A stretch of DNA of 21,811 bases. It comes from a virus. Below are positions 6,203-16,200 of this stretch, in pieces. A program made the position numbers and the translations under genes. Each line of letters begins with the position of its first letter. The first letter of the stretch is position 1. The stretch spans positions 1 through 21,811 of the IMG/VR virus record IMGVR_UViG_3300042294_001786; one strand, written 5' to 3'. The notes below the pieces were generated by a model. That model was not told the DNA's origin. It was given only the letters and a program-made list of their open reading frames with translations, and did no database searches.

Positions 6203-6390
6203 TAAAATACAAATATGAAGAATTAGACTTTCATGTCGATTCAGAATCTGGAAACTTAGTTATCGACTACGGAGAAAATATAGTTGAAATAGAAAATCAC
6301 ATTGCAATAGAGCTTGTTGAAATATTGAGGCAGAAACTCTATTTGCATAGAGAACAAAAAGAAAGTGTAATCAAACGATTCTTTAAATAA
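6199..6390 (+). CDS. Small hypothetical protein, 63 aa
   Basis: An acidic N-terminal part (YKYEELDFHVDSESGNLVID) leads into a helix (HIAIELVEILRQKLYLHREQ) with a basic end (VIKRFFK). It is coupled by an ATGA to the previous gene and by TAATG to the next. The family is not recognised; it is probably a small soluble early protein. Confidence 0.6.
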   Translation: MIKYKYEELDFHVDSESGNLVIDYGENIVEIENHIAIELVEILRQKLYLHREQKESVIKRFFK

Positions 6391-6677
6391 TGGAAGAAGC
6401 TCAAGTACTCAATCCCTTTGGATACCTATCTGCTACCAAGGTACTCGATGAAAACCGCAAACCTAGTGAGTGGTGGATTGAGTACCTCGAGTTTAACGAA
6501 ATAGTAGCTGAAAACGAATTCTATGTTCTTTTTTCAGATGGGTTACTAGTTAAAAAAGGAAGGTCTAAGTTTACTACTAGCCAGTATTTAAAATCAGAGA
6601 AGTTTGTATCCTTTAATGAATTCTATAATAAAGAAGCATTAGAAGATGATTGGGTTATGGTTGTTGGAATAATTTAA
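6390..6677 (+). CDS. Hypothetical protein, 95 aa
   Basis: A soluble, aromatic-rich protein (PSEWWIEYLEFNEIVAENEF, VLFSDGLLVKKGR, FVSFNEFYNKEALEDDWVMV) with the look of a small alpha/beta fold. The start overlaps the previous stop as TAATG. It is the last gene of the dense small-gene run before the tRNA-like region. I do not recognise a family, and no metal-binding or catalytic motif is evident. Confidence 0.65.
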   Translation: MEEAQVLNPFGYLSATKVLDENRKPSEWWIEYLEFNEIVAENEFYVLFSDGLLVKKGRSKFTTSQYLKSEKFVSFNEFYNKEALEDDWVMVVGII

Positions 6678-6683
6678 GGAATT

Positions 6684-6712
6684 TTTGGCACAATGTGACA
6701 ATTAGTGCCGAA
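6684..6712 (+). terminator. Hairpin after the early small-gene run
   Basis: TTTGGCAC at 6684-6691 pairs with GTGCCGAA at 6705-6712 (eight pairs, one of them G-T), and AAT/ATT inside extends the stem past a one-base bulge. It lies 7 bp after a stop codon. No U run follows, so it may be a processing or RNA-stability element, or a weak terminator. Confidence 0.35.
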
Positions 6713-6723
6713 GTATAGTAATT

Positions 6724-6826
6724 AATCAGGTGGCGGAATGTAGACGCGCATTGGAACTGCTTGTAAAAGTAATGGCACATTGAGATAACCTTAGATGTGC
6801 GTGCAGGATCATAGCCTGCCCTGACA
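6724..6826 (+). ncRNA. tRNA-Leu-like (class II) RNA element with abnormal anticodon arm
   Basis: The order of parts is that of a class II tRNA. TGGCGGAATGTAGACGCGC (6731-6749) is close to the D-arm of bacterial tRNA-Leu. A long variable arm pairs GCACAT (6775-6780) with ATGTGC (6795-6800). A T-arm pairs GCAGG (6803-6807) with CCTGC (6815-6819) around a seven-base loop ATCATAG. An acceptor stem pairs TCAGG (6726-6730) with CCTGA (6820-6824), the two outer pairs being mismatched. The anticodon stem CATTG/TAATG (6749-6753, 6770-6774) encloses 16 bases instead of seven. In the T-loop the conserved U54-A58 pair appears as A54-U58. No CCA is encoded. It may be a degenerate tRNA or a tRNA mimic; decoding looks doubtful. 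Confidence 0.55.
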
Positions 6827-6841
6827 ACAAAATATAAAAAC

Positions 6842-7108
6842 ATGATACCACCATTTGCAATCCAAGTAGAAGAAGTTCTTGAGCAGATTCATAAAATGCT
6901 TATCGACAAGAATCGTAAGTACGGAAACTCTGCATTAGAACCTCTCGGAGTGTTTAGTCAGTTGTCCGCAAAACAAGGACTACTGATTCGCATTGATGAT
7001 AAGCTAAAACGAATTAAAAATGGAAGCTTAGAGAAAGATGATGAGGACGTAGTAAATGACTTAATTGGTTACCTTGTCCTGCTGAAGATCAGCGATAATG
7101 TAAAGTAG
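6842..7108 (+). CDS. DUF1599 (nucleotide modification associated domain 1) protein, 88 aa
   Basis: The protein shows the pattern of this family: KNRKYGNSALEPLGVFS (23-39), RIDDKLKRI (50-58) and EDVVNDLIGYLVLL (68-81). The conserved acids and the KYGNS/DLIGYL framework resemble the helical nucleotide-binding fold of all-alpha pyrophosphatases, and the family has been linked by comparative genomics to phage nucleotide or base modification. A biochemical activity has not been shown as far as I know. It starts 15 bp after the tRNA-like element, so the two are probably co-transcribed. Length is full for the family and no frame damage is seen. Confidence 0.8.
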   Translation: MIPPFAIQVEEVLEQIHKMLIDKNRKYGNSALEPLGVFSQLSAKQGLLIRIDDKLKRIKNGSLEKDDEDVVNDLIGYLVLLKISDNVK

Positions 7109-7181: not shown

Positions 7182-7382
7182 ATGAGTCCTGATATCACCA
7201 TGTGCATGGGGACAAATTGTCCCTACAAAGAAAGTTGCTATCGATTTACCGCTAAGCCTAGCGAGTATATGCAGTCGTATTTTATGAATCCGCCTATTAA
7301 GGATGGAAAATGTGATATGTACTGGGGTGATTTAAGCGAAGCTATTTGGGGCCAGCTTCAAGACATTGTTAAAAAGAAGTAA
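7182..7382 (+). CDS. Small cysteine-containing protein, 66 aa
   Basis: The N-terminus reads MSPDITMCMGTNCPYKESCY, giving C8, C13 and C19, and a fourth cysteine C44 comes in DGKCDMYW. Four cysteines in the pattern C-x4-C-x5-C-x24-C suggest a small metal-binding (zinc or Fe-S) fold. Similar short proteins beginning with C-xx-xx-CPxxxxCYR are frequent in Bacteroidota phages, with unknown role. It is the last rightward gene before the convergence point and has its own upstream palindrome, so it may be separately regulated. Confidence 0.7.
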   Translation: MSPDITMCMGTNCPYKESCYRFTAKPSEYMQSYFMNPPIKDGKCDMYWGDLSEAIWGQLQDIVKKK

Positions 7383-7430
7383 GATTTTAGTAAAAATTCA
7401 TGCAACTGTAGACAAAATGGAGACAGTTGG

Positions 7431-7451
7431 CGACTAATATTGTCGATTTTT
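7431..7451 (+). terminator. Candidate terminator of the rightward arm
   Basis: CGAC (7431-7434) pairs with GTCG (7442-7445) around TAATATT and is followed by ATTTTT. The stem is short, so efficiency would be modest. It sits 49 bp after the last rightward stop, where two transcription units converge. Confidence 0.35.
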
Positions 7452-7511
7452 GGTACGAATTTATGTAAAAAGGTAACAAGAAATTCGGATTTTTTTCGAA
7501 TAACAACCTAT

Positions 7512-7534
7512 AAGTTCACAGATTGGGAACTTTT
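7512..7534. terminator. Second hairpin in the convergent gap
   Basis: AAGTTC (7512-7517) pairs with GAACTT (7527-7532) with a nine-base loop and four T in sequence at 7531-7534 on the + strand. It lies 8 bp from the end of the leftward gene at 7543. It could act on rightward RNA and as a 3' end hairpin for the leftward RNA. A further weaker repeat ATTCG/CGAAT stands at 7483-7501. Confidence 0.35.
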
Positions 7535-7542
7535 GTTAACCT

Positions 7543-8091
7543 TTAGAATAACTTTTTAGAAATCCCTATCTGGTGAGACCTAGTAAATGGTTGATATTGG
7601 TACTCAAAGATGTACTTGTTGTCCAAGTATGAAACTTTTGCTCCTGGTTGTAACAAAGAGTTAACCGATGCGCCTAAATAAATACCTTTGCTCTTCTTAA
7701 TTATTGTCTCGGTTTTTGTCTCGGTAATTGTGTTGATTACCACAGGTATCTTGAAATCGTTCGTAGCAGTCATTTTAAGCACTTCTCCGAGGACTTCTCC
7801 GCTTACATTGGTACTTCCATACTCCGAGGGGATGGATGTCTTAAACAGGCTAATTTGAGGCTTATAATCTACAAGGATTGTATCCCTAATAATCTGTGAT
7901 TTTATCCACTTTTTTGGCACATAAACTGTGTCCTTAACCTCCACCATCAAAGTGTCCGTTTTTGTCACGGTTTCATATTTGTAGACAGTCTCTTGCTCAG
8001 GCTTTGGGTAAATGACAAAAGTCAAAAGTACACCAATTAAAAAGGCAATTATTGCGATTCGTTTGCGCTCGTCATCTAGTAAATCTTTCAT
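7543..8091 (-). CDS. Membrane-anchored protein with amphipathic C-terminus, possible spanin-like, 182 aa
   Basis: I choose the start MKDLLDDERKR because its ATG overlaps the stop of the 47-aa gene (ATGA); a longer frame would add 29 residues that merely re-read that gene. A cytoplasmic charged head is followed by one membrane helix (about 12-27, IAIIAFLIGVLLTFVI), then about 150 residues of beta-rich, threonine-rich chain. The last 50 residues alternate polar and hydrophobic (GIYLGASVNSLL, KYIFEYQYQPF) and end in Phe (IGISKKLF), as outer-membrane strands do. Lying last in the lysis cassette, it could span the periplasm and act in the final step of lysis. That is inference; no coiled coil or lipobox is seen. 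Confidence 0.65.
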   Translation of the reverse strand: MKDLLDDERKRIAIIAFLIGVLLTFVIYPKPEQETVYKYETVTKTDTLMVEVKDTVYVPKKWIKSQIIRDTILVDYKPQISLFKTSIPSEYGSTNVSGEVLGEVLKMTATNDFKIPVVINTITETKTETIIKKSKGIYLGASVNSLLQPGAKVSYLDNKYIFEYQYQPFTRSHQIGISKKLF

Positions 8092-9171: not shown

Positions 9172-9632
9172 TACATAGCTAAATAGGTTGTTTTTCCGCT
9201 AGTTCTTATTGCTTTAAGCTTTTGCTTTCTGTTCCCTGTTTTAACAAATGATACATGAACCCAGTCAGGGTTAAAATCCGTTCCAAACTCCCAAATAAGC
9301 TGGTCAAAATCTAGCTTGTTTTTAATAAAATCAAAAACCATTCTATTGGTAACCTCGCCGTTACTTCCATCCATGTCAATGTCTATGGCTTGCCCTTTGC
9401 AATGCTGGCTTGATGAACTCCCCTTAATGAAATCATTGAGAGCCTTGCTTCTGTACCCAGAGCTGATAAAAATAGGAACACCAAAATGTTCGCGAATAGG
9501 TTCAAAGACTTTATCTGCAAGTAGCTTAAAGTTCTCAAGATGCTCTGCGGTTGGAGTATTATCTATTCCGTGTCTTTTGGCTGTATCACTTCTGGTGATC
9601 TCCGCAAGATTAAGATGTGGACTGATTTTCAT
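9171..9632 (-). CDS. Peptidase M15 family endolysin (D,D- or L,D-carboxypeptidase type), 153 aa
   Basis: The zinc ligands of M15 peptidases are seen: SSSSQHCKGQAIDID (72-86) supplies H77 and D84, and DWVHVS (123-128) supplies H126; FISSGYRS (55-62) is the conserved arginine region and Glu115 in LIWEFG may act as general base. The enzyme should cut peptide links in peptidoglycan. No signal peptide is present, so it would need the holin for export. It overlaps the holin gene by 23 bp. It is about the usual length for single-domain M15_3-type phage lysins and lacks a cell-wall binding domain. Confidence 0.88.
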   Translation of the reverse strand: MKISPHLNLAEITRSDTAKRHGIDNTPTAEHLENFKLLADKVFEPIREHFGVPIFISSGYRSKALNDFIKGSSSSQHCKGQAIDIDMDGSNGEVTNRMVFDFIKNKLDFDQLIWEFGTDFNPDWVHVSFVKTGNRKQKLKAIRTSGKTTYLAM

Positions 9633-9846
9633 TTTTGTCAGTTGGTTTTTTAAATATCTTTTCGGCTGCCGTTATACCTAAAGCGGCCGCAGATAAGGCG
9701 GCCACGGAATAAACAAGAGCGTCGTTAGGATTAAAATACAAAGTCCAACATAAGGCAATCGCAGTTAAAACACCAACAAGCCTTTTGCTCGATGCTTGCC
9801 CATGCTCGGATAAAAATCCCTTTGCCCATGTAAAAAAGTTTTTCAT
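9610..9846 (-). CDS. Probable holin, 78 aa
   Basis: The protein has two hydrophobic segments, about 22-37 (RLVGVLTAIALCWTLY) and 43-62 (ALVYSVAALSAAALGITAAE), a short basic N-terminus (MKNFFTWAKGFLSEHGQASS) and a charged tail (IFKKPTDKNENQSTS). Both termini probably face the cytoplasm, as in class II holins. Directly upstream of and overlapping the endolysin, it is the best holin candidate. Its start overlaps the stop of the small basic gene (ATGA). Expected role: timed hole formation releasing the M15 lysin. Confidence 0.75.
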   Translation of the reverse strand: MKNFFTWAKGFLSEHGQASSKRLVGVLTAIALCWTLYFNPNDALVYSVAALSAAALGITAAEKIFKKPTDKNENQSTS

Positions 9847-9971
9847 CGTCCCTGGCCTCTGTATTTTTTTGGTTTGTTTAATGCTTTGGAATAGGATTTT
9901 TTAGCTTTGCCATTTCGCCTGGTCCCAAAGGTGACCTTTATTGAGCTTGCCGCAGCTTTAGCCTTTGCCAT
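9843..9971 (-). CDS. Small basic protein, 42 aa
   Basis: The sequence starts MAKAKAAASSIKVTFGTRRN and ends in KKYRGQGR, with about a third Lys plus Arg. Proteins of this size with 'VxFGxRRxGKAKKS' and a terminal YRGQGR are ones I recall repeatedly from Bacteroidota phages; the function is unknown, though the charge suits nucleic-acid binding. The start overlaps the 64-aa membrane gene by 14 bp, and the stop overlaps the holin start by ATGA, so it is embedded in the lysis operon. Confidence 0.75.
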   Translation of the reverse strand: MAKAKAAASSIKVTFGTRRNGKAKKSYSKALNKPKKYRGQGR

Positions 9972-10152
9972 TATTTTTAAGCTTTTTGCTTTCGTTGATT
10001 ATTTTATAAACCAAATAAACTATTGATAAAATCGAAATTACCGAGGTAAAAACTACGTTTACCATTTGCAAGCCAGCCATTGCCGTAACATTTGCAAAGA
10101 TTGCTAGGAAAGTAGACGGTACGCCCAACTCATCGCTTTTCAATATATTCAT
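9958..10152 (-). CDS. Small membrane protein, second holin or antiholin candidate, 64 aa
   Basis: After MNILKSDELGVPSTF the chain is hydrophobic from about 15 to 51 (FLAIFANVTAMAGLQMV, VVFTSVISILSIVYLVY) and can form two helices, ending in a basic tail (KIINESKKLKNNGKG). It is the first gene of the lysis-like unit, just after a terminator and a -7-like promoter. Two small two-helix proteins in one lysis cassette are often a holin/antiholin pair, so this may tune lysis timing, or it may itself be the holin. Confidence 0.7.
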   Translation of the reverse strand: MNILKSDELGVPSTFLAIFANVTAMAGLQMVNVVFTSVISILSIVYLVYKIINESKKLKNNGKG

Positions 10153-10175
10153 CTAAGTAATTGTTTTTCGTTTAT

Positions 10176-10183
10176 CAAAAATA
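10176..10183 (-). promoter_or_regulatory. Candidate Bacteroidota promoter (-7 element) for the lysis cassette
   Basis: On the minus strand the bases read TATTTTTG, a full match to the Bacteroidota -7 consensus TAnnTTTG, 24 bp before the ATG of the 64-aa membrane gene. A TTTG lies upstream, but only 13 bp away, shorter than the usual -33 spacing, so only the -7 is supported. The position just after a terminator makes a promoter here plausible. Confidence 0.4.
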
Positions 10184-10201
10184 AGGCATTTTAAAGCAAA
10201 T

Positions 10202-10226
10202 AAAAAAGGGCTAAAATTTAGCCCTT
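10202..10226 (-). terminator. Rho-independent terminator after the tail operon
   Basis: AAGGGCTAAA (10206-10215) pairs with TTTAGCCCTT (10217-10226), a ten-pair stem with a tight A/T loop. On the minus strand a run of six T follows (10202-10207). It lies 10 bp beyond the stop of the 95-aa gene and separates the structural unit from the lysis cassette. The read-through level is unknown. Confidence 0.8.
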
Positions 10227-10235
10227 GTATTACCC

Positions 10236-10523
10236 TTACTTTTCCTTTAAAGCCTCGTAAAGCGGCCCTAAAACAAGCACAGTAAAGCCTTTAGCCTTGA
10301 CCTTTTCCTTTACTAAATCCGCGTCCGATTTGCTTAGCTCAATGTCGCCATCGGAATAGTAAATTTTCTTTGCCAGCTCGTAAAGTCTAATCGGGTCGTC
10401 CTTTTCCTCGGCTGAAAATAAGGCGTTTCCGACCATCTTAGACAAGTACATAAACTCGCCGTTTTCGCTTGTAATTTTGTTGCCTTCGATGTCTTGCAAG
10501 GCAATTGCTAGGTTTACAATCAT
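10236..10523 (-). CDS. Conserved small phage protein, 95 aa
   Basis: A soluble protein with beta-rich N-terminus (MIVNLAIALQDIEGNKITSE), a middle KMVGNALFSAEEKDDPIRLY, and the close LVLGPLYEALKEK. The pattern 'VGNAL ... K-Y--L-K--Y ... ELS-SDADL-KE-V ... V-GPLYEAL' recurs in small proteins near structural genes of diverse phages; I know no proven function. It is coupled to the preceding 94-aa gene by a 4-bp overlap and ends the structural operon before the terminator. Confidence 0.7.
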   Translation of the reverse strand: MIVNLAIALQDIEGNKITSENGEFMYLSKMVGNALFSAEEKDDPIRLYELAKKIYYSDGDIELSKSDADLVKEKVKAKGFTVLVLGPLYEALKEK

Positions 10524-10804
10524 GCTATAAGTGTAAGGTTTAATTTTTCGGCAATATAAACATACGCCGCCTCATTAGAATTATCCCAAGCCAAATAATT
10601 TTCGCCATCCATTAATATGTTGCCCTCTGCAAGGTTTTGGCCAATTACCAAAGGCATTGCCTCTGTTCCTTCGCCGCTTGCACAAAGTGAATAGTAAAAC
10701 GAGCAAGACGATTCTAAGTTGTCGTTAACAATGTAGGCGTTTAGCAAATTAGCCTCTTGGCTTTCGCCATTTTTCCAAATGGTTACTGGTTTAATTTGTT
10801 TCAT
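10520..10804 (-). CDS. Conserved small phage protein next to tail fibre, 94 aa
   Basis: Starts MKQIKPVTIWKNGESQEANL, then LLNAYIVNDNLESSCSFYYS, and ends YVYIAEKLNLTLIA. The pattern 'VTIW-NGE---A--LNAYIV-DNL---A-FYY-L' with 'G-NL--G-Y-AWD' is one I recognise from Bacteroidota phages, always near tail genes. The likely fold is beta-rich. It begins 4 bp after the tail fibre stop, so it may be a fibre-associated or assembly protein; that is inference from position. Confidence 0.72.
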   Translation of the reverse strand: MKQIKPVTIWKNGESQEANLLNAYIVNDNLESSCSFYYSLCASGEGTEAMPLVIGQNLAEGNILMDGENYLAWDNSNEAAYVYIAEKLNLTLIA

Positions 10805-10808
10805 GATA

Positions 10809-13289
10809 TTAATTTTTTAAAATGTCGATTTCTTGTTTTAATTCTTTTATTGCCGCAACTAATAAAGGTATAACTTCAGTATAGCTTAGTCCCATATAAC
10901 CTGTTGATTCATTGGTTACCACTGCTTCAGGTAGTACTTTTTCAACATCTTGAGCAATTAAGAATGAACGCTTTTTATCTTCTGAATCTGACAGATACCT
11001 ACCGATTACAGAACGCAAAGAAGATACTTTTTCTAATCCGTTTTCAATATCTACTAAATCAGTTTTTAATCTTTCATCTGAAGCTGCTAACCATGCAATA
11101 CCTCCTGATGCTAAATAAACACCACCACTACCACCTGACCTTATGTTTAATTCTGTAGTTGCTCCAGTAGTGCCCCCCATAAAAATTTGGGAAAAAGCAC
11201 CGCTTCTAGTTAATGCTAATTGGTTTCCTCCAGAATCAGCCTCAATACTAACTGGATAACTGCTAGACGAACCACTAATATTTAATTTTGCTCCTGTATC
11301 TGTTGTCGTTCCAATAAGTACATTTGATGTATCAGCTACAATTGTCATCATCGATGTTACCTGATTGCCATAACCTTTTGCTCCTTTAGCAAAAACAATT
11401 CTTCTACCGCCAACAGTATTACTATTATCAACTGCTATAGTCATATTAAAATAAGAACTTATAACCGCATTATCTGAATCAGTAAATTCAATCGTTGATG
11501 GACCTGATGAACTAGTTGAAGGTCGAATTGACAAAATTGATAAAGGACTAGTCGTCCCAATCCCAACGTTGCCGCTGGATAGAGTCATAGTTGGAGCAAA
11601 AGTATTAGCACCAGTTGCTCCAAAAGATAAAGTACTATTATTTGAGTGTATAAAAGGCGTTCCACTATTTACACCTATAAACATGGCAGCAGTTGCTCCG
11701 TCTGTAAATCGTGTAAATCCAGTCGTCCCTCCAGTCCCTTGAACTAATAACCTTTGACCTTGGTCTGTTGGTGTGCCAACAAGTAGGTTGCCGCCGCTTG
11801 TTAGGGTCATTGGTTGACTATATACAAATTCGCTGCCAGCACTACCGCTCCCTATTGTTCTCCAAGCGTGTTGCCCATTTTCCTGATAATAATCACTAGC
11901 AAAACCTGTATTTATACGAACCCATGAGGTAGCGGAAACATTTAGATAAGCATTATTTGATAGGTAAAAAGACCCTATTCCACTTGCTGTACTTGTTAAA
12001 GAGGCACCACTACTAAATTGAAATAATTTATAAGATGAATTAGTTGTGTTTGGAGTAATGCCAAAACCAATTGAATAAGTACCCTCTTGAATAATGCTAT
12101 TTCCAATCGTGCTTGCTCCTGTAAACTTTGGCAAGTAGTTAGTAGTTCCTGTTCCCGTGACTGGGTTAGTCAAAGCGTTTTGTTTGCCGTTAAATGTTGT
12201 CCAATCGGTACTCGATAACAAGCCATTTTGCGAGCCGCTGGCCGTTGCAATTGCTAAGGTAATAGTTCCGCTTGTTGTTATCGGAGTTGAGCCAATAGTG
12301 ACGCCGCTAGTCGCCGAGGATAAGCCGACAGAGGTAACCGTTCCAAGATTAGAAGTTTTGTTATTAAAAGTCGTCCAATCCGCCGAGCTTAAAGCGCCTC
12401 GATTTGTCGCGCTTGCCGTTGGTAAATTAAACGTATGAGTATCTGTTACGCTAGAAATTGCAAAGTCCGTTCCGCTAGTCCCAACCGTTAAATATTGCAC
12501 TTGGCTAGTAAGTCCGTTTAATGCAGTCAAGCCACTTGTAAACGTGGTTATAACTTGGCATAAATGATTATTCTCAGTATGTAAAGTAATTGTCCTACCT
12601 GAATGCGTCACATAATATCTAAGCGCCAATCTATCTGTTAAAGCTAGGACTGTCTCGGGAACTGCTAACGCGCTAAAATATGGGTTTAAGTTAGTTCCAA
12701 AAGCGATTAATTCAGGAGCCGAGCTGCTAGACGCAATTAATGTAAAGGTTGTGCCATTGTACTTGTAAAGCTCGATATAAAAGGACGGCGAGCCACCATT
12801 ACTTGACGCGCTAAAATAGGTTTCAAAATTCCAATTTCCAGCTGGAATAAGTAGTTTATTAGGGTCGCCAGCATCTGTAATAAATGAGGCAATATATCCA
12901 TCTGCGTTTATGCTTATGTCAGTTCCAGCGCCAAATATTGGCGTTTTGTTAAGTTCCTTATAAGCAACTCCTCCGATTGTGCCTTGCGAAACAGAACCAT
13001 TCAAATAGTAACTAACCGAAGAGCCTCCGCCCGTAGTTGCTGGAAAGTCAGCCAAAGAGCCGTCGCCTCTAATATATTGTCCAACCGTGCCAGCGCCTCC
13101 TAAAACTTGAGCGTCTGTAATAGACAACCCAGTTGAGGCAGTTGCAATGGTTACTGGCAAATGGTTTTGACCGCTTCCACTTGGGTCGACGGGATTTTGT
13201 CCCTCGGAAACAACAAAGCCTGGAGAGGCTGGAGTTGAGCCAGCTCTAACAACTTGCGCTCTAAATTTGCTAATATTTACGTCTTCCAT
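10809..13289 (-). CDS. Tail fibre/spike with C-terminal S74 self-cleaving chaperone, 826 aa
   Basis: The C-terminus (737-826) is an intramolecular chaperone: SDERLKTDLVDI carries the Ser737/Lys742 dyad for autocleavage, followed by AQDVEKVLPEAV and a final helix (IPLLVAAIKELKQEIDILKN). The long middle is Gly/Ser/Thr-rich with phage-fibre repeats, including two close units LSSADWTTFNNK and LSSTDWTTFNGK, GTVTSVGLSSATSG, and GNVGIGTTSPLSILS. The N-terminus (about 1-60) should attach to the baseplate. Trimerisation and cleavage of the chaperone are expected from the family. A C6 run on the + strand codes MGGTT here. It starts one base after the hub protein's stop and should bind the host receptor. 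Confidence 0.9.
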   Translation of the reverse strand: MEDVNISKFRAQVVRAGSTPASPGFVVSEGQNPVDPSGSGQNHLPVTIATASTGLSITDAQVLGGAGTVGQYIRGDGSLADFPATTGGGSSVSYYLNGSVSQGTIGGVAYKELNKTPIFGAGTDISINADGYIASFITDAGDPNKLLIPAGNWNFETYFSASSNGGSPSFYIELYKYNGTTFTLIASSSSAPELIAFGTNLNPYFSALAVPETVLALTDRLALRYYVTHSGRTITLHTENNHLCQVITTFTSGLTALNGLTSQVQYLTVGTSGTDFAISSVTDTHTFNLPTASATNRGALSSADWTTFNNKTSNLGTVTSVGLSSATSGVTIGSTPITTSGTITLAIATASGSQNGLLSSTDWTTFNGKQNALTNPVTGTGTTNYLPKFTGASTIGNSIIQEGTYSIGFGITPNTTNSSYKLFQFSSGASLTSTASGIGSFYLSNNAYLNVSATSWVRINTGFASDYYQENGQHAWRTIGSGSAGSEFVYSQPMTLTSGGNLLVGTPTDQGQRLLVQGTGGTTGFTRFTDGATAAMFIGVNSGTPFIHSNNSTLSFGATGANTFAPTMTLSSGNVGIGTTSPLSILSIRPSTSSSGPSTIEFTDSDNAVISSYFNMTIAVDNSNTVGGRRIVFAKGAKGYGNQVTSMMTIVADTSNVLIGTTTDTGAKLNISGSSSSYPVSIEADSGGNQLALTRSGAFSQIFMGGTTGATTELNIRSGGSGGVYLASGGIAWLAASDERLKTDLVDIENGLEKVSSLRSVIGRYLSDSEDKKRSFLIAQDVEKVLPEAVVTNESTGYMGLSYTEVIPLLVAAIKELKQEIDILKN

Positions 13290-16200
13290 TTATGTCGTTG
13301 GTTCTATTCCTAAATCGTAAAGCTCAATTCTCGCCGTTCCTTTTCTGCAATCAAGTTCGTAACTCATTAGCGCCCAATATCGTCCGTTAAACAAGAAACT
13401 TCTAAAAGGGTCGATTGGTCTTCGCTCAATCGTTGCTAAAACTCTGTAATTCGTTCGGCCTTTCAAGTTAGCTAATTCTTGCACGATAATATCTAGCAAA
13501 GGTAACTCTTCGACTCCATCTCGTGTCCAATCCGTAGAAACTGCATTGTCAAAATCTAGCAATCTAATCGCTGAAACTGAGTTGCTCGTAATTGCGTCTC
13601 CAATGTATGTATTGTAATCGGGATGCACGTTGGCATAAGGTGAGCCAGTAACCGCTTTAACTCCTAACTTTGACAAAGATAAGCCATCCGTTTTCTCAAT
13701 CTTTAAAGAGAGATTTTCATACCTTACAACGTATCTGTTAGCCGTTCCTCCGTTGCAAATTAGTTGATGCAATCGAATCTCAACCTCGCCGTCAACTGGG
13801 ACTAAAACGTTATTTATTGCAATGCTATTCCAAACAGAGCCAGCCGTAACCGCGAACTCCATGACCGTACTTGTGCCAGTCCAAGCAAAGGTTGTTGCTC
13901 CGCTTCTTGACAAGTATTGGTTGCCAATTTTAATCATTAATCCAACGGCATGAGCCGCTGGAGTAACCGCATAACTCGTGCTTACTCTTTCTACCATGTA
14001 TTGAAAGGTCAAAGAAATAGTATTAGCCGTCTCTTCTGCAATTGTAATGGCTCCTCCAGTTGTATTCGTGCTTGCTCTAATCCAAGATAATTCAGGATCA
14101 TCTATTCCATCCGTTGTGGTTGTTGTCCATATTTGCACATACTCCCCCCCTCCAGATACGTACTGCACCAATGCCGTACTTCCACTTGGAACGCTTGATG
14201 GCTGGTTACTTGGGATTGCCTTGTGATAATCCCAAAGCTTTAGTTGATAAATTCCGTTATAAGTAGAGCCTACTCCGTTTAAATTCCACTCCTCAATCGC
14301 AAACTTAGCGTCAAATATTCCGCCTTGGCTATTTGGGTCTAATACTCCAAGATTTAGATAAGAGTTAAATTCTGTAAATACTCTTCTAGCAGTTTCTTCC
14401 GGAGAGTTAATATCCGCATTTAGATCATCGCCGTTAACAATTGTAGTTGTTGCCGTTAAACTTAGGTCGGGCAAGAATTCGTACATTTTATAAGATAACT
14501 TGCCTAACTCGGTCAATCTCACAACATAAAATTGATTTTTCCACAAAAAAACTCGGCAAAGGAAAGGGTTAACCATTCTCTCAATCGTATCTTTTAAATA
14601 CAATTGCTCGTTTTCAATCCTTACGCCGTTGCTAAATTTAGCGTCTAGTCCATCGGTAAAGATTGCGTTTTGTGGCACGTTAAATTGACGGAAAACGCTT
14701 TCGTCATAATCCATTCTAGCCTCGTGTACTTCGCAACCAATAAAGACAGGTCTTTGATCTACAAATGATTGATTCAAAGCGCCAACAACTCCAGACAAAG
14801 CCTGTGTTCTAGGGTCAGGCCAAGAGGTAAAATTTGAGCGTATAGAATCAAATCCTTTTAATCCATCAACCGCAGTAAAAGAGAAAAGCTTTGGCCCACT
14901 CTTATATGGAGAGGTAATAAAGTCAGGCGCTATGTAGCCGCTAAAGAAAGATTGTATGCCTTCAAATTCTAAGTAATTAATTTTACTTGTTCCACTTGTT
15001 GCTCCAATTACAAAGGTATTATTTCCAAACGCAATCGATTCAAAAGTAGCAACTGAAGCCGCTGGTATTGCAGTCCAATTTATTGCGTTTGTAGAGTAAG
15101 CTATTCGGTTAGTTCCACTACTTCTAGTTGCAACAAAATATCCGTTTCCATAAGCTATTGACTCTGGAGAAAATGGTATTGAATTACTTATCCAAGTTAA
15201 TCCATCAACTGAATATCTTGAGCCAGTAGTAAATTTACCATCTGCAAAAAAAATTGTCGTAGAGTTAAAAACTGTTGCTTGCTCATCCCAATTTAAACCG
15301 TCATAAGAAGTAAAAGTTGTCCCTCCTGAAGATGCGCTACAAACCGCGACCCAAATTCCATTACCATAAGCAACACCGCTAAATGATGGATTTATACTTG
15401 TTGTTCTTGATGTCCAAGTAATTCCATTTGGTGATGTCATTATACGATTAGTTCCAGTACTAGCAACCGCAACATATAATCCATTTCCAAATGAAATATC
15501 TTGAAAAGTCATTACCTCACTAGGAGTTCTGCTTGTCCATGTTATTCCATCTGGTGAGGTATTAATATATGATGTTGGAACTCCTGAAGCAATTACAAAA
15601 CCAATGGCTACAAATTGACCATTTCCATAAGTAACGTGTTCAGCACCTAAATAACCGCCACTTGTCCAAGTAATTCCATCCGAAGAATATTGCACATTTG
15701 CAAAAACACCAACAAAAAACCCATTTCCATAAGCCATGCCTCTAAAACCTCCAGTTGGAGAAGCGGCTTGCCAATCAGTAATATCGTTGTTTGCGCTAAC
15801 TTGATTTAACGCAACTCTCCAAGTCCGATTGCCACCAACAAGAAACTCGTTAAAATCTCCAGTCTCGCCAGCAATTGTAAAGTCAACCGAGGAGCCAATA
15901 ATTGTCTCTAATGGGTCGTTTCCAGTATTACCCCAATTGTATGTAATATCGTTAATCAGCAAAGGTGTAACCGCTCCTGAATAGCCAGTTCTGAAAATTT
16001 GCAAGTTCCAAACATTGCCTCCGTAGTTTGTAGCATACCCCCCCTCATATTTTAGACCGTAGTCATTTACAGGCGCGTTTTGGCCTGTTAAAACAACATA
16101 GGCTTTAACATCCTCACTAGGCATCGTGTAGCTAAACGACAAACTAGAAGACAAGAAAGTATTGCCTGGCGAAGTATACCACATTGCGGTATGATAACCA

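Follow-up and report, generated by a model that had tools for sequence, protein, structure and literature searches.

A tRNA-framed RNA element with a replaced anticodon arm in a viral genome belongs to a large family with variable inserts

We identified an RNA element with the layout of a class II tRNA at positions 6723–6827 of a 21.8-kb viral record of the IMG/VR class, the whole of which is referred to here as the window. The window carries phage replication, methyltransferase, endolysin and neck genes. The element sits in an intergenic gap flanked by ORFs at 6390–6677 and 6842–7108, and it lies on the same (+) strand as both. Further along, at 7382–7543, the coding strand flips from + to −, with early-type genes on one side and the structural module on the other. 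At the site of the element, neither an intrinsic terminator nor a sigma-70 promoter rises above shuffled sequence in a scan that does not cover Bacteroidota promoters.

The gap also contains an inverted repeat at 6684–6712 (+ strand) that the initial annotation had described as a stable hairpin preceding the element. The hairpin is strong (fold z −3.53) and shows one compensatory change, in relative L016. However, it is retained in L002, a relative without a tRNA-like element, and is thus not part of the element. The repeat may be an operator or a promoter-spacer repeat, for example an operator between Bacteroidota promoter boxes.

The element extends from position −1 to discriminator base 73, with C74 at 6828, and all of its parts are on the + strand. 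The 5' strand of the acceptor stem, AATCAGG (6724–6730), faces 6820–6826 with its two outer pairs mismatched, and the 3' strand together with A73 occupies 6820–6827. The D arm (6733–6747) reads GCG-GAATGTAGA-CGC and has a shortened D loop without G18G19; the middle pair of its stem is UA in 19 relatives and CG in 7. The place of the anticodon arm is taken by a hairpin at 6749–6774, which consists of an outer stem (CATT/AATG), a one-sided bulge of six nucleotides (6753–6758; GGAACT, or GGAACU in the RNA) and an inner hairpin (6759–6770; GCTT[GTAA]AAGT, or GCUU[GUAA]AAGU in the RNA) with a GUAA tetraloop. A long variable arm follows at 6775–6800 (GCACAT/ATGTGC, conserved loop TGAGATAACCTTAG), in which five of the six pairs show two-sided changes. 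The T arm (6803–6819) has the loop ATCATAG, with A54 and U58 instead of U54 and A58. All four arms of the class II layout first noted from the sequence are therefore present. The 16-base 'swollen anticodon loop', by contrast, is not a loop, as RNAalifold folds this region in 26 relatives as the bulged hairpin described above.

Relatives were gathered from viral contigs through the downstream protein (L001–L080), the frame sequence AGTCAGGTGGYGGAAT and the 17-nt insert motif GAACTGCTTGTAAAAGT; a search for the latter returned 60 stretches, mostly inside such elements. Among the 26 distinct relatives aligned (set A4), the 29-pair cloverleaf is paired in 99.2% of cells, and 13 of its 29 pairs show two-sided compensatory changes, a count reached in none of 500 shuffles and in no slid control. 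RNAalifold recovers the same acceptor, D, variable and T arms when the proposed structure is not supplied. The outer stem of the insert also covaries, occurring as CAUU/AAUG, CAUC/GAUG and AAUC/GAUU, and in the L133 clade as ACCC/GGGU around the same motif. The T stem covaries as well. At positions 54 and 58 of the T loop we find UA in 16 relatives, AU in eight, CG in one and an unpaired combination in one, which supports the proposal that the A54-U58 swap is compensatory. The motif GAACTGCTTGTAAAAGT is conserved across the window subfamily, with a variant in L160; its invariance within the 26 relatives is partly ascertainment, as relatives were found by searching for that 17-mer.

Standard tRNA detection does not find the element. 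ARAGORN predicts no tRNAs in the window, and a search of its whole length against Rfam yields nothing at E≤1; a search with a short stretch produced a chance match only (E 8.3). Relative L006 passes the Rfam tRNA model (34.2 bits), as do other family members, whereas nothing in the window does. A covariance model (R1) built from 33 other family members, with the window not among them, finds the window element with 33.9 bits and an E-value of 4.6e-6. A second R1 match at 13228–13296 on the minus strand (E 0.034) was taken as chance, since it lies almost wholly within coding sequence.

The acceptor stems of the relatives read AGTCAGG/CCTGACT or AGTCATG/CATGACT. The outer acceptor pairs of the window copy are both broken (A-A and A-C), as had been pointed out, and the two mismatches occur together only there; the outermost is shared with L016 and the other relatives pair normally. 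These two lost pairs, a drifted elbow and the habit of annotation pipelines of labeling such genes 'Undet' would fit a decaying or pseudogenized phage tRNA. However, compensatory change maintains the stems in many copies, which largely refutes decay as an explanation, and the insert motifs are conserved between phages, so that we regard this reading as very improbable. The initial annotation had weighed a tRNA mimic against a tRNA remnant. Stems that covary in relatives and a conserved non-decoding domain in the anticodon region favor the mimic, and apart from the two acceptor pairs lost in the window copy the remnant finds no support. The elbow has drifted in the window branch, with the GG of the D loop (G18G19) and the TTC of the T-loop consensus both lost, while the insert motif is kept. 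This places the constraint on the insert, and it suggests, from sequence comparison, that in this branch function resides in the insert, for which the frame serves as a scaffold. Given the two lost acceptor pairs and the lost elbow motif, the window copy itself may be in decay or a poor substrate for processing.

The window element, first seen as a single odd tRNA-Leu-like RNA, turns out to be one of a large family whose middles are interchangeable, and IMG/VR viral contigs contain at least about 200 distinct relatives with the tRNA frame in common. At least 209 loci yielded 207 elements (201 distinct), with middles of 8–221 nt. The common frame consists of an acceptor stem that is mostly AGUCAGG/CCUGACU, a Leu-type D arm, a T arm, the U8-A14 and A15-U48 contacts and C74. 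Among the matches listed, U8-A14 is found in 177 of 195 elements and the Levitt pair 15:48 is A15-U48 in 157 of 195, with G15-C48 in five of the six cases that have G15. C74 is present in the 3' flank of 193 of 198 elements among the matches listed, compared with 65 of 65 genuine tRNAs on the same contigs. In 33 members chosen to be diverse, the frame is 99% paired and has two-sided changes at 11 of 15 pairs (0 of 500 shuffles). Other acceptors retain intact pairing (AGCAAGA/TCTTGCT, AGCCAAG/CTTGGCT and AGTCAAG/CTTTGACT), and in L303 an insert also found in AGTCAGG members sits on an entirely different acceptor, AACAGAG/CTCTGTT. Most loci came from an AGTCAGG search and the dominance of this acceptor is therefore partly ascertainment, although loci found through neighboring genes carry AGTCAGG too.

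The middles are highly diverse. The 198 distinct elements that remain after filtering, among the matches listed, fall into 24 middle clusters and 135 singletons, or about 160 unrelated middles; these are counts of sequences rather than of independent events, and the contigs are fragments. A second subfamily, whose insert is unrelated, shows two-sided changes at 13 of 23 pairs, including the closing stem of the insert. Overall the middles fold somewhat better than shuffled sequences (mean z −0.68, with members not all independent). A stem of at least 5 bp occupies the position of the anticodon stem in 64 of 154 members, compared with 41 ± 6 expected, and closes loops or domains of 3–67 nt. A canonical anticodon arm was found in five of 154 members, where about one is expected from shuffles, and at least one of the five is real, a tRNA-Ile in L006. 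The family grades into ordinary tRNAs without a clear border, since the anticodon hairpin of some elements is close to normal and a small number of genuine tRNAs have the frame. A second hairpin resembling a T arm (N5-TTCRANT-N5) is present in several middles (L101 2389, L159 13263, L131 5643, L191 2913, L196 726 and L206 3671), which look as if built from tRNA pieces. Extra hairpins also occur in the D loop (L041 2811, L173 4211, L111 483 and L163 7082), which seems to be a second place of insertion.

The position of the insert is that of tRNA introns, and a group I intron is present elsewhere in one array (L211). The elements could accordingly be tRNA genes in which excision of part of the middle restores an anticodon arm. 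However, many middles are only 8–25 nt long, too short to hold both an anticodon arm and an intron, Rfam identifies no intron in any element, and the covariation in two subfamilies runs through the middle. The arrays examined also already have tRNAs for nearly all amino acids, and we give intron-bearing tRNAs almost no weight. RtcB-dependent splicing or repair was rejected, with RtcB in none of 32 records.

Up to 11 elements occur per genome, often within phage tRNA arrays. In G006, G007, G008 and others all copies are on one strand and mostly in one region. In these three genomes the elements are interleaved, on the same strand, with real tRNAs, which number about 20 or more and between them serve almost every amino acid. 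The array of G007, a 94-kb record (L211), also holds a tmRNA, a group I intron and a GOLLD RNA. The tmRNA lies at L211 309–803 (Rfam 68.5 bits); the GOLLD RNA (9192–9618, 239 bits) is directly followed by a TROVE/Ro60-domain protein (9690–11240), and a GOLLD-Ro60 partnership is possible in this phage. ARAGORN calls some elements odd tRNAs (L212 6324–6404 and 9270–9355; L213 14348–14441 and 17555–17641; L215 9117–9195; L216 9139–9228), and its labels on such elements include several A34 anticodons (Ile-AAT, Pro-AGG, Ser-AGA, Tyr-ATA, Leu-AAG) and one Glu-CTC. Many elements may be annotated wrongly as tRNAs in public records.

Related phages carry different elements at one intergenic site. At the site of the window element some have an element of its type, some another type, some a tandem pair, and L002 has none. 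Constant ends, variable cargo, presence or absence and exchange at one site would all fit a mobile or recombination cassette whose ends are conserved as DNA sites, the RNA fold being incidental. However, the ends vary with base-pair compensation (AGTCATG/CATGACT, AACAGAG/CTCTGTT, AGCAAGA/TCTTGCT), and the tRNA tertiary pairs that are kept would be superfluous for DNA sites. We therefore consider a purely DNA-level role improbable, while cassette exchange may be the way in which inserts spread.

The exact 3' frame is found in only eight GTDB contigs and the exact 5' frame in two of 395 Bacteroidota genomes, so the frame is essentially a viral feature. The few host contigs with the frame are mostly from Bacteroidota MAGs, which points to Bacteroidota as the hosts. 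BLAST against named phages and plasmids gave no full-length match, and no description was found in the open-licence literature, though a subscription paper or preprint could exist. This large family of virus-encoded tRNA-framed RNAs is thus apparently undescribed so far. An analog is present in an isolate, Tenacibaculum phage pT24 (LC168164), in which two 'tRNA-Undet' genes (L281 17033–17111 and 17400–17478) lie in a small tRNA cluster. Both have normal acceptor, D and T arms, and the hairpin TTCG-C-GGGT-ATATT-ACCC-T-CGAA replaces the anticodon arm. However, their acceptor is GGTTGTA/TACAACC and their frame is class I. These genes have been reported only as tRNAs (PMC5502841). The same phage has an odd 'tRNA-Pro' with a 6-bp stem and a 5-nt loop (L281 17190–17268) and an amber-suppressor-like tRNA (L281 16521–16594).

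Several known RNAs resemble the elements in part. Class II tRNAs such as tRNA-Leu share the acceptor, the Leu-type D arm, the T arm, the long variable arm, U8-A14, the 15:48 pair and the C74 flank. The acceptor, D and T stems that a functional tRNA-Leu would need are supported by covariation in the window subfamily and across the family, although the window copy itself lacks its two outer acceptor pairs. However, the window element and its subfamily lack the 5-bp anticodon arm with a 7-nt loop and U33, having instead the bulged hairpin with its GUAA tetraloop, and at standard thresholds no tRNA model (ARAGORN or Rfam) matches the window. The family further differs from tRNA-Leu in its hypervariable inserts and in its many copies per genome with unrelated middles. 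The tmRNA (RF00023), of which phage copies exist, also joins a tRNA-like acceptor and T domain to another domain in place of the anticodon arm. The elements are only about 100 nt long, and in the main frame their third acceptor pair is not the alanine identity pair G3-U70 but U-A; nearly all members have U-A or C-G there. No element matches RF00023, the single match being the separate locus in L211. Apart from generic tRNA, the elements match no Rfam family.

YrlA mimics a tRNA with its D, T and acceptor-like arms and plays no part in decoding (PMC8394870), and the elements could in principle be bacterial Y RNAs of this type partnered with a Ro60/Rsr protein. One record does have a TROVE protein beside GOLLD in its array. 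Against this, TROVE occurs in only two of 38 records searched (Rsr could be host-encoded), and the ends of the elements form a complete 7-bp acceptor stem that runs on into the T arm instead of a separate Ro-binding end stem. Rfam finds no Y RNA in the elements, which also occur in multiple hypervariable copies, and the chance that they are Y RNAs seems to us close to negligible. GOLLD and ROOL are phage non-coding RNAs near tRNA islands, with function unknown (PMC12286853). Both are much larger, with an unrelated fold and no tRNA frame, although GOLLD shares the G007 array. Functional tRNA, tmRNA, YrlA, intron-bearing tRNA and cis antisense RNA each differ from the elements in a defining feature. 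The window element joins a tRNA frame to a non-decoding, family-specific middle, as indicated by the R1 match and the subfamily covariation. A constant tRNA frame with open-ended, exchangeable and covarying inserts matches no tested family; tRNA mimicry itself is old.

With the code-reading arm replaced, the elements cannot serve as normal tRNAs. We think it reasonably probable that the window element is one of a family of phage-encoded RNAs that have a tRNA frame, do not decode and act in trans through an interchangeable structured insert. The constant frame (acceptor, D arm, T arm, elbow contacts and tRNA-like 3' flank) would hold an interchangeable domain in place of the anticodon arm, and often of the variable arm too. 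The frame, together with the elbow contacts and the flank, points to processing of the tRNA type; the transcript would most likely be trimmed, CCA-tailed and stabilized as tRNAs are. The insert most likely bears the activity and would bind a host protein or RNA in trans. An arms race or conflict is suggested by the diversity of inserts, the multiple copies in one genome and the exchange at a single site, and the elements are probably viral tools inside bacterial cells. A role as antisense or guide RNA against the phage's own contig was rejected, as inserts have four complementary matches there and four in shuffles. The 17-nt motif was likewise considered as a mimic or targeting sequence for a recurrent host sequence; in 60 host-family genomes it has only scattered one-mismatch matches, in no conserved gene or rRNA.

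A specific form of this trans-acting role, and the likeliest single one, is that of a decoy for, or inhibitor of, host antiviral factors that bind or cleave tRNAs. Each insert would then present an anticodon-like hairpin, either uncleavable or sacrificial, on the tRNA body and so titrate anticodon nucleases or similar factors. Hypervariability fits an arms race of this kind, and the phages that host the elements carry near-complete tRNA sets, one of them also a tmRNA. T4-type RNA ligase is found in five of 32 records, and pT24 combines its non-decoding tRNAs with Pnk and RNA ligase. However, RNA ligase is absent from most records and RtcB from all 32, the inserts are often large domains rather than loops, and the window branch has lost elbow features that a tRNA-binding protein would read. 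We therefore see the decoy role as possible but on the unlikely side. Somewhat easier to entertain, though still tentative, is a broader proposal: that Bacteroidota phages have a natural tRNA scaffold system displaying open-ended RNA effectors, matured by host enzymes and swapped as cassettes, directed against host factors or competing phages.

If the trans-acting reading is correct, tRNA finders have kept an entire class of phage non-coding RNAs out of sight, either missing them or labeling them odd or undetermined tRNAs. An isolate with analogs, Tenacibaculum phage pT24, makes the idea testable now. Biotechnologists use the tRNA body as a display scaffold, and nature would be using it as a general one. 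The family would then add new structured RNA domains by the hundred, with possible targets in bacterial defence, translation or tRNA metabolism.
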